Translations under genes and position numbers: made by a program
Part shown: piece by piece, positions 4,775 through 43,165 of the stretch
How positions within the stretch are numbered: the stretch's first letter is position 1
How the letters are laid out: every line of letters starts with the position of its first letter
The notes under the pieces: generated by a model
Database searches by the model: none
The model's input: the letters and a program-made list of their open reading frames with translations, nothing else
What the model was told of the DNA's origin: nothing
Source: Falsibacillus albus
GTDB taxonomy: Bacteria > Bacillota > Bacilli > Bacillales > DSM-25281
DNA: 64,000 nucleotides
Assembly: GCF_003668575.1 (NCBI RefSeq)
Contig: NZ_RCVZ01000001.1
Coordinates: 310,001-374,000, forward strand
Direction: 5' to 3'

Positions 4775-5227
4775 ATGAAAATAGTTTTACAGCGAACGAA
4801 AAAAGCAAGCGTCACCGTAAACGAGGAAGTGATTGGGGCCATCGATCATGGCTTTGTGCTATTGGTCGGCATCACCCATGGGGATACCATTGATGATGCA
4901 AAATACTTGGCAGAAAAAATCGTGAATTTAAGAGTGTTTGAGGATGACAATGGCAAAATGAATCACTCTTTGAAAGATGTAGAAGGACAAATTTTGTCTA
5001 TCTCCCAATTCACACTATACGGAGATTGCCGCAAGGGCAGGCGTCCGAATTTCATGGAAGCTGCCCCACCGGATACAGCTGAACCTCTGTACGATGCTTT
5101 CAACGAACTTCTGCGCAGCCAAGGCGTTCCTGTTGAAACGGGTTCTTTTGGCGCAATGATGGATGTCCAGCTCGTGAACGATGGGCCAGTAACATTGATT
5201 GTTGAAAGTCAATCGGGGAAGAAATGA
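4775..5227 (+). CDS. dtd: D-aminoacyl-tRNA deacylase
   Basis: Hydrolyses D-Tyr-tRNA and other mischarged D-aminoacyl- or glycyl-tRNAs, protecting translation. The product has 150 residues, typical of DTD, with the two defining motifs SQFTL (residues 76-80) and NDGPVT near residue 135, which form the active site across the homodimer. ATG start 14 bases after relA, so it is probably co-transcribed; a strong terminator follows. Confidence 0.97.
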
Positions 5228-5240
5228 TTCGGATAGAAGA

Positions 5241-5272
5241 AGAGCAAGGCTTTGGCCTTGCTCTTTTTTTGT
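5241..5272 (+). terminator. Terminator after dtd
   Basis: Perfect AGAGCAAGGC / GCCTTGCTCT stem with a T run of seven. Confidence 0.93.
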
Positions 5273-5305
5273 TTGGGGACATGATGATTCAAATAGAGGT
5301 ATGTT

Positions 5306-5877
5306 GCCCAAGTGAGCGTCCAAAAGCAGAACCCGGTCATCAAGCAGGTGGTTTGATGCCCAAGTGAGCGTCCAAAAGCAGAACCCGGTCATCAAACAGG
5401 TGGTTTGAAGCCCGAGAGTTAGTCCAAAAGCAGAAGCTGGTCACCAAGCGGGTGGTTTGATGCCCAAGTGAGCGTCCAAAAGCAGAACCCGGTCATCAAA
5501 CAGGTGGTTTGATGCCTAGGTGAGCGGCAAAAAGCAGAACCCGGTCATCAAGCAGGTGGTTTGATGCCCAAGTGAGCATCCAAAAGCAGAACCCGGTCAT
5601 CAAGCAGGTGGTTTGATGCCCAAGTGAGCGTCCAAAAGCAGAACCCGTTCATCAAGCAGGTGGTTTGATGCCCAAGTGAGCGTCCAAAAGCAGAACCCGG
5701 TCATCAAACAGGCGGTTTGATGACCGAGAGTTAGTCCAGAAGCTCAACCCGGTCATCAAACAGGTGGTTTGATGCCCAAGTGAGCGTCCAAAAGCAGAAC
5801 CCGTTCATCAAGCAGGTGGTTTGATGCCCAAGTGAGCGGCAAAAAGCTGAAATCGGTAATCAAGTAGGATCGGTCAC
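5306..5877 (+). repeat. Tandem array of eleven 52-bp units with internal dyads
   Basis: Units start every 52 bases exactly (5306, 5358, 5410 ... 5826). Most units carry CATCAAAC or CATCAAGC, five bases, then GTTTGATG, an 8-bp hairpin; the C-to-A/G changes in the left arm keep G-U pairing. Three unit types differ at the left: AAGTGAGCGTCC, GAGAGTTAGTCC (units 3 and 9) and GTGAGCGGCAA (units 5 and 11). The order A-A-B-A-C occurs in units 1-5 and again in 7-11, a higher-order repeat of 312 bases. The unit length is not a multiple of three and no frame stays open, so it is non-coding. It lies between the convergent genes dtd and the NERD gene. Confidence 0.95.
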
Positions 5878-5955: not shown

Positions 5956-6885
5956 TTAATTCTCTACAATATTCTTCCTGGAGATATATTGAGCTTTTCT
6001 AGCATGGCCTATGAGGAGGAAATGCTTTCTTAAAACTTTTCTTATGATCTTTTTCGATGTAATTCCACCACACCATTCATGAATCGCATTGGTGGTGATT
6101 GCTTTTTTCGGGAAAAGCATACGATATTCAAAAATACTTCGAAGAATGGCCTCATTGCTATTTTCCTTTAGGCTGCATTTTTTACAAACTATCATATTTT
6201 CCACTAGATAATTGTTATCAGATCTACAGTTTTCACATAGGATTCCCTTTTGTAAGTCATCGTAATGAAATTTAGGTAAGCGTGAATATGGGGAATCAAC
6301 GATGTGCTGTGAGGCAATTCGTTCAGCAAGCTCAATTTGTTGTTTATTCACGTCCGCCGCCTTCCTCTGTATCTTCTCCCCAAATCGATTGAGCTGTGCG
6401 GGAAACACAATGGGCAGGCTTTGTGGAGCGTTATAAAGATGGAATTCAGGATTGATGAAAATCAGATAAGATTCAATGTGGGTTTTAATGCCGAGTTCCT
6501 GGAGCAGTTTTCGAAGGAGGTATTCATTTTTTCTCAGTTGAAGGAGGGGATTTTTTATTTCTGCATTCGCTGCCGTGTACCATCTATCACTTTCCAAATA
6601 ATAATCGCCTTCATAGTTTTTGATTTCAAAGTTGAATAAAACATTTTGACTGAGGGCCATGGAGTCAATTTGAAAAATAGTATGATTGGTTTCTAGGAGT
6701 AAATCGTTCAGGATCAGCAGGCGTTGTGAGTAGGGTGTGAACCATTGGTCAAAAGCAATTTCCCCCTCATATCCTTTTTCTAAATTCAAATAGTAAATCA
6801 TTTCTCTCTCCGGCATCTTCACACGTGCTGCCAAAATTCGATGAAGCACCAATTCAGCGGGTTCTGTCCTTTTCTTGATCTCCAT
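5956..6885 (-). CDS. NERD (nuclease-related) domain protein with zinc ribbon
   Basis: A 309-residue cytoplasmic protein. Residues about 35-150 match the NERD family (YEGEIAFDQWF, then LLLETNHTIFQID, then FEIKNYEGDYY), a fold related to restriction-type nucleases and found in many Bacillus proteins; the acidic and lysine residues of the EIKNY segment fit a PD-(D/E)xK-like core. Near residue 215 a CENC...CKKC pair suggests a zinc ribbon, followed by a basic C-terminal region that may bind nucleic acid. The biological role of NERD proteins is not settled. It is a single gene on the minus strand, its stop 78 bases from the 52-bp array; dtd and yrvJ are otherwise neighbours in Bacillus, so gene and array are insertions relative to that order. 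Confidence 0.85.
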   Translation of the reverse strand: MEIKKRTEPAELVLHRILAARVKMPEREMIYYLNLEKGYEGEIAFDQWFTPYSQRLLILNDLLLETNHTIFQIDSMALSQNVLFNFEIKNYEGDYYLESDRWYTAANAEIKNPLLQLRKNEYLLRKLLQELGIKTHIESYLIFINPEFHLYNAPQSLPIVFPAQLNRFGEKIQRKAADVNKQQIELAERIASQHIVDSPYSRLPKFHYDDLQKGILCENCRSDNNYLVENMIVCKKCSLKENSNEAILRSIFEYRMLFPKKAITTNAIHEWCGGITSKKIIRKVLRKHFLLIGHARKAQYISRKNIVEN

Positions 6886-7088: not shown

Positions 7089-8858
7089 TCAATGGAAATA
7101 GTTCACCAATCCATTATATATCCCCGTTGACACGAGTTCTTTGTACTGTTTTGAGAGGATGGTCGCTTCTTCAGTGGAGTTGCTCAAATATCCAAGCTCC
7201 ATCAAGGTTGCCGGCTGTGAATTTTCACGGATCACGTGGAAGTCGCCGAAACGCACACCTCTGTCCCTCAGACCGATTTGATTGGATACTCCTGCATCCA
7301 ATGCATCAGCAAGGGATTGTTGATAATCATGGTAATAATAAGTCGTATGCCCATTGACGCTGTGATCCGAACTGCTGTCGAAATGTATGCTGATGAATGC
7401 GTCTGCATTTTGACTTTGGGCGACGGATACCCTTGATGGAAGGGAGACATATCTGTCATCACTCCTGGTCAACATGACATTGGCCCCTGCGTTGCTTAAT
7501 TTATCATAAAGCAATTGGGCAGTCTGCAGGGTCATCATTTTTTCGAGCGTTCCCCTGTTTCCGGTTGTACCGTTGTCCCTTCCACCGTGTCCCGGATCGA
7601 TGATAATGGTTTTGCCTTCGATGGAACCATGGTTGGACGGATTTTGCTTACCGGAATGATTTGATTCCACATTGCCGCTCGATACAATCCAACCGGCAAT
7701 GAAAGCGGTCTGTCCATTGGATAAATAGATTTCAAGCCAGTCTCCACGGCTGCTTTTAATTTTAAAGGTATCGCCTGCATTTGCCCTTTGGACGATGGAA
7801 GACTGGACGGAAGGCTGCTGTCTAATGTTTGTGCCATTGTACAAGACGGTCACATTACCCTCTGAGCTCGTTTTTGCTTCGTTGTTCTGGGAGCTGAGGG
7901 ACTTCTCCATGAACCATCCCGCGACCCAGCCGTATTGGCCTGAATTAAGCTTGATTTTGATCCAATCATTTTGTTCTTCAGCCACTTGATAAGATTCACC
8001 GGTATTGACTGTTCCGATGACCTGTCCGTTCAATGAAGGGGTGCTTCTGACATTCAAGCCGCTGACGTTTACTGTTGCGGTCAGGGCAGAATGCGAATCC
8101 CCATCCGAGCTGCTTTTGCTTCCGGTTGAGGAAGTGCTAGCTGTTTCCACATAGCGGTCGCTGATCCAAGCCGTATCACCGCCGTATTGAATTTGATCCC
8201 AGCCTGACTGGGAAGAGATGATTCCCACCTTATCGCCTTTACGCAAAGATCCAACGATTTCACTTTCAGTATCCGGCTTCGAACGGGCATTTAAGTACTC
8301 AGCGGTAATGATGCCTGTTGATGACGCAGATTCAGCGCCGGCCGGGGAACTTTGACTATTTGATGCAGCAGTTTTTTGCACGTAGCTGCTGTATACCCAG
8401 CCATTCTGGCCATTCGCCTTGATTTTCAGCCAATTTCCTGAAGCTTGTATAATTTCCACGGTATCATTCTTAGAAAGAATAGAAAGAATGGAATCACTTG
8501 TGCTTGGTCCGCTTCTTAAGCGCAGGCTGTCGACCGTGATTTTACCTGTATTCCCGGAACTGGAAGCTGCAGTTGAATCCCCGACCTTTGAAACGAGCCA
8601 TGAAGCGACCCATCCCTTTTTGAAAGGAGAGAGCTCGATCTGGATCCAATCTCCTTGCTTTCCAACCATTGAATAAGTTTCACCCTTATGTATTTGACTG
8701 ATTACGGAATATGTCAGTCCCGGACCTTCACGTACATTCAAAGGGCTGACGCCGATTTTCACCTTTTCACCGCCTGCCGCTGCAACGGAGGCATTGGCCA
8801 TAAATGATGAAAAGGCCAGTAATATAATCAGCAATGTAGAAAATCCTTTTTTACCCAT
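7089..8858 (-). CDS. yrvJ: SH3-domain N-acetylmuramoyl-L-alanine amidase
   Basis: Exported peptidoglycan hydrolase that cuts the amide bond between N-acetylmuramic acid and the stem peptide. The product has 589 residues. There is a signal peptide at 1-28 (basic start, hydrophobic core, ASVAAA), then five bacterial SH3 domains (each with an L/N-V/A-R-x-x-P segment and a GWV/WISD-like end) separated by Ser/Thr-rich linkers, then a C-terminal Amidase_3 domain from residue 418 with zinc ligands in IIDPGHGG, SIHFDSS and the catalytic glutamate of LMELGYLSN. ATG start with AAGGTGGTG upstream. The position next to dtd and hisS matches B. subtilis yrvJ. Confidence 0.93.
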   Translation of the reverse strand: MGKKGFSTLLIILLAFSSFMANASVAAAGGEKVKIGVSPLNVREGPGLTYSVISQIHKGETYSMVGKQGDWIQIELSPFKKGWVASWLVSKVGDSTAASSSGNTGKITVDSLRLRSGPSTSDSILSILSKNDTVEIIQASGNWLKIKANGQNGWVYSSYVQKTAASNSQSSPAGAESASSTGIITAEYLNARSKPDTESEIVGSLRKGDKVGIISSQSGWDQIQYGGDTAWISDRYVETASTSSTGSKSSSDGDSHSALTATVNVSGLNVRSTPSLNGQVIGTVNTGESYQVAEEQNDWIKIKLNSGQYGWVAGWFMEKSLSSQNNEAKTSSEGNVTVLYNGTNIRQQPSVQSSIVQRANAGDTFKIKSSRGDWLEIYLSNGQTAFIAGWIVSSGNVESNHSGKQNPSNHGSIEGKTIIIDPGHGGRDNGTTGNRGTLEKMMTLQTAQLLYDKLSNAGANVMLTRSDDRYVSLPSRVSVAQSQNADAFISIHFDSSSDHSVNGHTTYYYHDYQQSLADALDAGVSNQIGLRDRGVRFGDFHVIRENSQPATLMELGYLSNSTEEATILSKQYKELVSTGIYNGLVNYFH

Positions 8859-9227: not shown

Positions 9228-9505
9228 AAAATCAAAAATGATCCGGTGAGGAAGAGAAGTAATTAAGAACCATATGACTAGAGAGGAAATGCCTTGGCTG
9301 AAAGCATTTCTGCATGTTGGCTTAATGAATGACACTTCTTAGGATTTTCCCTGAAAAGCTGGTCTCAGTAAGGGAAGTACGTATTCAGGCGTTAACTGTC
9401 AAAGAGGAAGCTTATTTTATGCTTCAATTAGGGTGGCACCACGGGAATCAAACTCTCGTCCCTTGTAAAATGCAATTTTTACAAGGGACCGGGAGTTTTT
9501 TTATT
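9228..9505 (+). promoter_or_regulatory. T-box riboswitch of hisS-aspS
   Basis: tRNA-sensing leader. The T-box sequence AGGGTGGCACCACGGG is at 9430-9445. The specifier region of stem I reads GAATGACAC at 9327-9335: aligned with the alaS leader of this window (GAA-N-specifier-A) the codon is GAC (Asp, 9331-9333), while the overlapping CAC (His) is at 9333-9335. The antiterminator competes with a terminator made by CTCTCGTCCCTTGTAAAA (9453-9470) and its partner ending in GGGAG plus seven T. When uncharged tRNA binds, read-through into hisS-aspS is expected. Confidence 0.93.
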
Positions 9506-9508
9506 TTT

Positions 9509-9887
9509 AGGCTTTGTTAAACACCGCTGTTGATTTCCGTGCAAGACTTCGCTTTCCGCGGGGTCTCACACGAAGTGAGGTCGTTCGATGTTGGCACAGG
9601 AAGTGCCGAACTTAATCGAACATCCGACCAAGCTCTCCTCGCTTCGCTGCGGGGTCTCACCTATCTAGCTCTGGGGCTTAGGGGCTCGAGGTCATAAGCC
9701 GATTCTGTCAAAAAGGCAAAGGACGTCTTTCCGTCAGATTCGTTTTATGCTTGTCGCCCCTAGGCAAAGCCCCGCCGCTTTTCTAACTGTCCCGCTAATC
9801 CCGCCGGAGTCTTCGTCTTGCACTCCAATCAACAGTTGGAAACAGGATACTATCAACACCATGCTTTATCTGAGCCTTATTATTAAA
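9509..9887 (+). repeat. Dispersed inverted-repeat element, copy R2 (longest)
   Basis: Starts AGGCTTTGTTAAAC, then CACCGCTGTTGATTTCC, and ends near TGAGCCT. Contains the same nested module as R1 (about 9660-9790) plus an extra inner part (9570-9655) with an inverted repeat around GTTCGATGTTGGC / CTTAATCGAAC shared with the copies at 24327 and 52695. It lies between the T-box terminator and the hisS ribosome binding site, so it is transcribed as part of the leader. Confidence 0.85.
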
Positions 9888-41718: not shown

Positions 41719-42644
41719 AGAAGCCTGAATTACTTGTGACGCCTGTAAACCTGGACAACATGAAAGAATTGATTGCCGCGGGAGCGGATGCATTTGTCAT
41801 AGGTGAACAAAGATATGGGCTGCGCCTGGCCGGTGAATTCAGTCGACCAGAGCTGAAAGATGCGATCGAATTGGCACATGCAAATGGAAAAAAAATATAT
41901 GTCGCAATGAACGCGATATTCCATAATGAGAAAGTTGATGAACTGGCTGACTATCTTACTTTCCTAAATGGAGTTGGCGCCGATGCTGTCATCTTTGGAG
42001 ATCCGGCTGTCTTGATGGCTGCACGAGAAGCAGCGCCGGAGATGCCTTTGCACTGGAATACGGAGACAACAGCAACCAATTGGTATACTTGCAACTACTG
42101 GGGGAGAAAAGGAGCGAAACGAGCTGTACTTGCCCGTGAATTAAGCATGGATGCGATCATTGAAATCAAGGAGCATGCTGAAGTGGAAATCGAAGTGCAA
42201 GTCCATGGAATGACTTGCATGTTCCAATCCAAGCGCTCATTAATTGGAAATTATTTCGAATATCAAGGGAAAGTGCTGGAAATCCAAAATCGCAAACTTG
42301 AAAAAAACATGCTCCTTCACGATAAAGAAAGAAATAATAAATATCCTATTTTTGAAGATGAGAACGGTACACACATCATGAGCCCGAATGATATGTGCAT
42401 CATTGACGAGCTGCAGGACATGTTGGAAGCAGGCATTGATTCATTCAAAATTGATGGTGTACTCCAGGAGCCTTCATACATCGTAAAAGTGACTCAACTG
42501 TACCGAAAAGCCATCGATCTTTGTTCAAAAAACCTGGCCGAATATGAAAACACGAAGGACGACCTTCTCGAACAAATCGAACAAATCCAGCCAAAACACC
42601 GACCAATCGACACAGGATTCTTCTACAAAGAAACTGTGTATTAA
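41715..42644 (+). CDS. trhP1: Peptidase U32-like tRNA hydroxylation protein TrhP1
   Basis: A 309-residue protein, YrrN of B. subtilis, which together with YrrO is needed for prephenate-dependent 5-hydroxylation of U34. U32 domain with GADAFVIGEQRYGLR at residues 20-34 and FKIDGVLQEPSYI near 250. It lacks the cysteine cluster present in trhP2, so it is probably the non-cluster partner. GTG start overlapping trmR by 4 bases. Confidence 0.9.
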   Translation: MKKPELLVTPVNLDNMKELIAAGADAFVIGEQRYGLRLAGEFSRPELKDAIELAHANGKKIYVAMNAIFHNEKVDELADYLTFLNGVGADAVIFGDPAVLMAAREAAPEMPLHWNTETTATNWYTCNYWGRKGAKRAVLARELSMDAIIEIKEHAEVEIEVQVHGMTCMFQSKRSLIGNYFEYQGKVLEIQNRKLEKNMLLHDKERNNKYPIFEDENGTHIMSPNDMCIIDELQDMLEAGIDSFKIDGVLQEPSYIVKVTQLYRKAIDLCSKNLAEYENTKDDLLEQIEQIQPKHRPIDTGFFYKETVY

Positions 42645-43165
42645 AAGAAAAGCGCAGGCGCCTTGAACATCGACGTACAGACTGGAAGAATACTGACTGA
42701 GATAAAGGAATCTCGAAGAGCGGAGCGATTCGATGATGACTTATCGTAGGGAAGTATTCTGAAGTCTGCTAGTCGATAGGCGCCGGAGCTGGACAAAAAG
42801 AAAAGCGCAGGCGCCTTGAACATCGACGTACAGACTGGAAGAATACTGACTGAGATAAAGGAATCTCGAAGAGCGGAGCGATTCGATGATGACTTATCGT
42901 AGGGAAGTATTCTGAAGTCTGCTAGTCGATAGGCGCCGGAGCTGGACAAAAAGAAAAGCGCAGGCGCCTTGAACAGAGGCGAAGAGATTGGACTGATCTA
43001 TAAGGATCAAAGGCTAAGGGCGCCAAGTCCTGTGGCAAGGCCTTTGCTAGTACATCCTGTACGTCGGAGATAAAGGAAACACAAAAGGCGAAAGCCTTTT
43101 GATGTTGACTTATCGTAAGCGTGCTGAGGGAAATCTCACAGCCTCTAGCCGCCGGAGCTGGCTTT
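42644..43165 (+). repeat. Three tandem copies of a hairpin-type element between trhP1 and trhP2
   Basis: Each copy begins AAAAGCGCAGGCGCC and ends GCCGGAGCTGG. Copies 1 and 2 (from 42652 and 42805) have a period of 153 bases and appear identical; copy 3 (42958-43165) keeps the ends but has a longer, different centre with its own hairpins (CAAAAGGC / GCCTTTTG near 43082). No protein is encoded. The insertion splits what is normally a tight operon. Confidence 0.9.

Follow-up and report, generated by a model that had tools for sequence, protein, structure and literature searches.

A repeat array between dtd and a NERD-domain gene

The window, the whole 64,000-nucleotide stretch that was analysed, carries a tandem array of 52-bp units between two convergent genes (Table 1). 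One is dtd, encoding a D-Tyr-tRNA deacylase (PF02580), followed by an intrinsic terminator that a simple terminator scan missed; other genomes share this arrangement at their dtd locus. The other encodes a NERD-domain (nuclease-related, PF08378) protein and is neighboured by an N-acetylmuramoyl-L-alanine amidase gene. Rfam matches in this region (locus L007) correspond to a T-box leader and a Bacillaceae-1 RNA. A tandem repeat of 153/154 bp (GAGATAAAGGAA...GATGATGACTTATCGTAG) occurs at two places in the genome, and its second copy directly adjoins a 52-bp array.

Table 1. Coordinates of the features at the window locus and of arrays and genes at other fetched loci
Feature	Location	Strand	Remarks
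dtd, D-Tyr-tRNA deacylase	window 4775..5227	+	stop 71 bp upstream of array
Intrinsic terminator of dtd, GAGCAAGGC-TTTG-GCCTTGCTC-TTTTTTT	window 5242..5270	+	precedes array; read from sequence
52-bp tandem array	window 5298..5868	+	11 units, last decayed; 27-bp dyad + 25-bp linker; TRF and unit list
First 27-bp dyad, GGTCATCAAG-CAGGTGG-TTTGATGCCC	window 5335..5361	+
Nine further dyads	window, starts 5387, 5439, 5491, 5543, 5595, 5647, 5699, 5751, 5803
NERD-domain gene	window 5956..6885	-	convergent; 3' end 88 bp past array
N-acetylmuramoyl-L-alanine amidase gene	window 7089..8858	-	directly after dtd in sister species G001, where array and NERD gene are absent
T-box leader	window about 9237-9466	+	Rfam match
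Bacillaceae-1 RNA	window 9565-9631	-	Rfam match
153/154-bp tandem repeat	window 42643-42975; L006 3401-4288
NERD-domain gene	L105 294-1109	-
NERD-domain gene	L184 2633-3535	+
Array of about 70 units	L192 10163-13782		3.6 kb
Arrays of ~20.5-bp class	L255 10944-11412; L244 7367-7604; L225 5262-5445; L216 8939-9042
41-bp tandem array	L085 2379-3007		15.7 copies
51-bp repeat	L163 11036-11833		no dyad

TRF reports the array with a period of 52, 11.0 copies, 86% matches, 0% indels and a score of 862; the whole window shuffled five times yielded zero tandem repeats at score 50. The unit list agrees, and the earlier note was right that the 52-base spacing is exact for every unit. It had also described an 8-bp inverted repeat in ten units. 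The ten dyads are indeed there (CAYCAARC-RGGYG-GTTTGAWG), but the complete symmetric element is longer, an imperfect dyad (GGTCATCAAA-N7-TTTGATGCCC) that spans 27 bp and leads into a 25-bp linker. The arms pair with 8/8 Watson-Crick matches in three units and with seven plus one G-T in five, and units 2 and 3 carry a genuine mismatch. Arm changes that keep G-U pairing had been taken as a hint of selection on structure; they are recurrent yet represent one single change, and other arm changes lose pairing. The variant order A-A-B-A-C repeats as described: units 3 and 9 bear the B marker GAGAGTTAGTCC, and units 5 and 11 the C marker GCGGCAAAAAGC. The duplication behind it, thought to comprise five units, is better described as a six-unit duplication with an offset of 312 bp because mean unit-to-unit identity is highest at lag 6 (0.892 versus 0.78-0.88 at other lags). 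A coding repeat was rejected, as 52 is not divisible by 3 and the TGA of TTTGATG hits each frame across three units.

The geometry is fixed and the sequence is free

Across arrays, two inverted half-sites span 27 bp (10-7-10) and are followed by a 25-bp linker. The unit length over 65 arrays (507 adjacent units) is 52 bp in 476 cases, 51 in 16 and 53 in 12, and neighbouring units have accumulated 3869 substitutions, yet no more than 31 units deviate from 52 bp. Core-to-core spacing in 29 arrays of two genomes is 52 in 263 of 284 intervals and 51 or 53 in 18, and the inner loop measures 7 in 314 of their 319 dyads. Tandem TGTC..GACA arrays have an outer width of 27 in 186 cases and of 26 in two, a value that was not assumed beforehand. 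The dyad symmetry is pronounced: in 35 of the 65 arrays, 9-10 bases of the best 10-bp arm are complementary, compared with 15 of 1300 shuffles.

One genus (g185, genome G487) has two arrays with 62-bp units, in which the same 27-bp dyad is joined to a linker 10 bp longer. This amounts to one extra helical turn, given the about 10.4 bp per turn on which the helical-phase argument rests. Irregular spacings are mostly near whole turns (42, 43, 63, 72, 72 and 82), a suggestive pattern in few cases; spacings of 66 (G550) and of 98 and 107 (G397) fall off whole turns. The data argue for selection at the DNA level, on helical phase and on half-site pairs. The earlier note had considered a phased protein-binding array on one DNA face, which gains indirect support from the fixed 27-bp dyads, the 52-bp spacing and the genus that is one turn longer; the binding itself is what we infer.

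Arrays also persist over species. In ten species of one genus, an array or its relic lies behind the same gene, in about 2 to 18 copies. This locus conserves the half-sites GCTGTCNGAA / TTCNGACAGC, the loop and linker vary, and N differs between the arms, so the half-sites fit reading by a protein better than a base-paired stem. Dyads outside arrays are nearly absent (about 460 kb of the window's own genome yielded a single decayed one). Single dyads were thus rejected as operator sites, and no single-site operator betrays the protein.

Arrays are scattered across Bacilli

The window's genome holds a second array of 24 units with the same core and a different linker (G000:C2), found by DNA search, and further arrays on contigs C6, C10, C13, C15 and C28, found with a two-unit covariance model (A1/R1). 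Nearly every one of these arrays is spaced at 52 bp, and all of them have dyads. A full-unit DNA search of 397 genomes of the order matched only this genome, as did a strict core pattern, and two-unit covariance models were therefore required. A pattern scan of 84,980 genomes turned up genuine arrays in a single organism, Ammoniphilus sp. YIM 78166, whose array loci number about 20. Pattern matches in IMG/VR and on other genome contigs had no 52-bp array by TRF and were taken as chance.

Model R1 detected arrays in 5 of 146 genera across 399 Bacilli genomes, and a second model built from unrelated-looking arrays (A2/R2) detected them in six. Their union places related arrays in 9 of the 146 sampled genera, from 8 families; these counts are lower bounds since the models cover some sequence families only. 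Plasmid and phage collections had no array match. Like the earlier note, which knew of no named family, we found none in the open-licence literature or Rfam.

In the complete genome G114, unbiased TRF was run on 800 kb, made up of one contiguous 400-kb stretch and 20 segments of 20 kb distributed along the chromosome. Of the noncoding arrays returned, 22 have periods of 51-53 and another has 104; the remaining noncoding periods were 20-21 and 40-41 bp only, apart from a 30-bp repeat, probably coding. Scaling up this sample suggests that the genome contains well over a hundred arrays. They fall in several half-site families (GGTCACCAAT, TGTCCGAA, TGTCCGWTAG, TGTCACAATA, TGTCAAGAAA and TGTCCATAAA). 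Draft genomes undercount arrays because many lie at contig ends (L082, L091, L098, L100, L102, L103 and L105).

Some related repeats deserve mention. The longest row of units in Table 1 (L192) comes from a complete genome and has a 104-bp (2 x 52) higher-order pattern. The same genomes carry another class of array at gene ends, whose period is about 20.5 bp (20/21, 41, 62, 81, equal to 2, 4, 6 and 8 turns); none of these was seen between divergent genes either. A 41-bp tandem array (TTATGCGCGATTATCTTCGTTTATGCGCCAAACATGGGGAT, L085) occurs near a 52-bp array. The 51-bp repeat of L163 is readable as a 17-residue protein repeat (NNGNQNGDQMPVRVGKQ) and is probably coding and outside this array class, since it has no dyad.

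Arrays lie at gene ends

Where both neighbours are known, 20 arrays are located between convergent, 35 between codirectional and one between divergent genes, compared with 58, 292 and 123 background gaps of the same loci (Fisher p=2.6e-5 and 3.4e-6). Arrays are thus overrepresented in convergent gaps and almost never lie in divergent ones. Eleven more arrays from the even sample divide into 3, 7 and 1; gene calls came from a simple ORF caller, and single placements may be wrong. Arrays in codirectional gaps follow the upstream stop at a median distance of 95 bp and precede the downstream start by a median of 209 bp. Of 75 flanks, 33 have a strict terminator-like hairpin between the array and the gene end, where 2.4 would be expected.

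The dtd locus varies among relatives. A sister species of the window's own genus (G001) has dtd, terminator and amidase at this locus without the array, and no such array within the 400 kb examined, so the array is not essential. In G084 and G114, the dtd locus carries a 53-bp array of different sequence, flanked by two terminators.

These observations bear on an alternative that we regard as unlikely, namely that the arrays are neutral or selfish minisatellites. Slippage, unequal crossing-over or some unknown copying process favouring about 52 bp would amplify dyad sequences, which would survive only where they are harmless, and the period would reflect the mechanism or one ancestor rather than a function. 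The patchy distribution with an empty site in a sister species, the range of about 2 to 18 copies at a single locus, the higher-order repeats and homogenisation within arrays and the many unrelated array sequences in one genome all fit this account. The arrays indeed resemble VNTR minisatellites in being tandem, in varying in copy number between species and in their internal higher-order repeats. Gene ends are also where harmless insertions are best tolerated, which counts against a functional reading. However, the same period recurs in unrelated arrays and genomes, the exact length persists through thousands of substitutions, and the 27-bp width and 7-bp loop are constant over unrelated sequences. 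Ten species keep the half-sites and lose the linkers, one genus jumps by one whole turn, and ordinary satellites of the same genomes (e.g. the 153-bp repeat) differ in length. The earlier note would have accepted a neutral minisatellite if arrays sat at random sites with freely varying unit lengths; the outcome speaks against such a free minisatellite, since array sites favour gene 3' ends and unit length is not free to vary.

Comparison with known repeats and binding sites

The closest parallel in position is the REP/BIME family. These palindromes alternate in orientation, are separated by short and long spacers, and occur behind 3' ends in convergent or codirectional gaps and in many copies per genome (PMC3733652). 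In E. coli, BIMEs have been proposed to absorb supercoils or stop stray readthrough, and binding of DNA gyrase is a further mark of the family. The arrays are likewise extragenic and between convergent or codirectional genes in 55 of 56 cases. Unlike REPs, only 1 of 65 array consensuses has a GTAG/CGTC tag within 6 bp of the dyad edge, and the arrays keep a strict 52-bp tandem period with constant geometry and changing sequence. A REP-type Y1 transposase (RAYT, PF01797) had no match in the array-rich G084 and G081 and two in G001, where 400 kb showed no array; its occurrence does not follow the arrays, and it was rejected as their cause. Given the tags and RAYT results, membership in the REP/BIME family is not claimable. 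A CRISPR array, which shares the partly palindromic 27-bp repeat and fixed-length spacer, was also rejected, as the linkers repeat with the unit (about 86% alike) and store nothing unique. The array's neighbours in the window are the dtd, NERD and amidase genes.

The dyads might instead be bound by a serine (resolvase-like) or tyrosine recombinase, with the arrays as its targets or products, which appears improbable. Half-sites TGTCCGATA, TGTCCAATA, TGTCCAGTA and TGTCTAATA fit TGTCYNNTA, presumably the gamma-delta half-site consensus and a lead only, but the GGGCATCAAA and GGTCACCAAT families do not. The 10-7-10 dyad is the layout of a tyrosine recombinase core as well. In Tn3-family res, adjacent subsite centres are 5 turns apart with 4-7 allowed and helical phase important; for sites I and II the distance is generally 5 turns, and the dyad of box I measures 28 bp (PMC12217951). 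The ~28-bp dyads of res thus resemble the array dyads, whose centres are also whole turns apart (52 bp; 62 bp in one genus). However, arrays reach about 70 units rather than three subsites and lie at gene ends rather than upstream of a resolvase gene. Among the fetched loci, a motif scan identified only two serine recombinase genes, neither beside an array (one in G001, where no array was found, and one, apparently prophage, in an array-free stretch of G114). With no resolvase linked in the fetched loci and no match in plasmid and phage records, membership in the res family cannot be claimed.

Very improbable is a structured RNA, which the earlier note offered as an option and which would consist of transcribed hairpin arrays in 3' UTRs that protect mRNA or are bound by an RNA-binding protein: three of four two-unit strands fold more stably than shuffles (z -2.5 to -3.9) and REPs elsewhere at the same gene-end position have been read as RNA (PMC3733652), but terminators precede many arrays, the dtd locus included, exact 52-nt spacing is unexpected given free linkers, and the arrays in L007, L006, L032 and L040 had no Rfam match. 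On the sense strand of codirectional arrays, there are 112 G-T versus 128 A-C mismatches (8 versus 15 counted by array); G-U is not preferred over A-C, so RNA structure is not supported. Between families both arms co-change (47 double changes versus 19 in shuffles, with few G-U intermediates), which counts for the DNA reading, although the rows were chosen partly for strong dyads and hence lean towards pairing. A purine polarity of the arrays on the sense strand (25 versus 10) is weak and was not used as evidence.

A candidate partner

The approximately 3 Mb of fetched DNA contain two relatives of the window's NERD protein, one in Ammoniphilus and one in G114. All three NERD-domain genes have a 52-bp array 71-105 bp behind their 3' end, in three genera and with unrelated array sequences, with the qualification that one of the three loci was fetched on account of its array. 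The NERD protein may be a partner of the arrays and is a lead only. No NERD relatives were found in plasmids and viral contigs, and an AlphaFold model from three sequences (pLDDT 66) is too weak for use.

A putative phased DNA element at gene ends

The window repeat is one of many arrays that point to an undescribed chromosome element, putatively bound by a protein on one DNA face. We give roughly even odds (about 0.5) to the reading that the arrays are DNA rather than RNA elements, made of dimer sites phased on one helix face and serving as boundary elements at gene ends; the protein, its cooperativity and the boundary function are the conditional parts. The 27-bp dyad would consist of two inverted ~10-bp half-sites, 7 bp apart, both contacted by a single dimer of a DNA-binding protein. 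The 25-bp linker may act as a spacer for which length counts but base sequence is immaterial. It would set successive dimers five helical turns apart on the same DNA face, allowing cooperative binding, bending or wrapping; a dimer bound every five turns is what the geometry suggests. Behind gene 3' ends and mostly outside transcripts, the arrays could act as boundaries that absorb transcription-driven supercoils or stop stray readthrough, a role suggested by their position and the parallel with BIMEs. Arrays would grow and shrink through unequal recombination between units. The patchy spread (9 of 146 genera), the empty dtd locus of the sister species, the near-absence of dyads outside arrays and the spacings that are not whole turns speak against this reading.

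We tentatively, and with less than even confidence, extend the reading to a class defined by geometry. Gene-end 27-bp dyads at five-turn (rarely six-turn) spacing, with half-sites drifting along with the binding protein in each genus, would assemble into phased nucleoprotein filaments and thereby mark the boundaries of transcription units in Bacillota, with NERD as a possible partner.

Sequence-based repeat searches miss such arrays because the geometry alone is shared. The system allows a direct test of whether DNA phase, rather than sequence, is selected. If the arrays are bound as proposed, this would also account for their frequent location at the contig ends of these draft genomes, and some Bacilli would mark many of their gene ends with phased protein arrays, a counterpart of the BIMEs.
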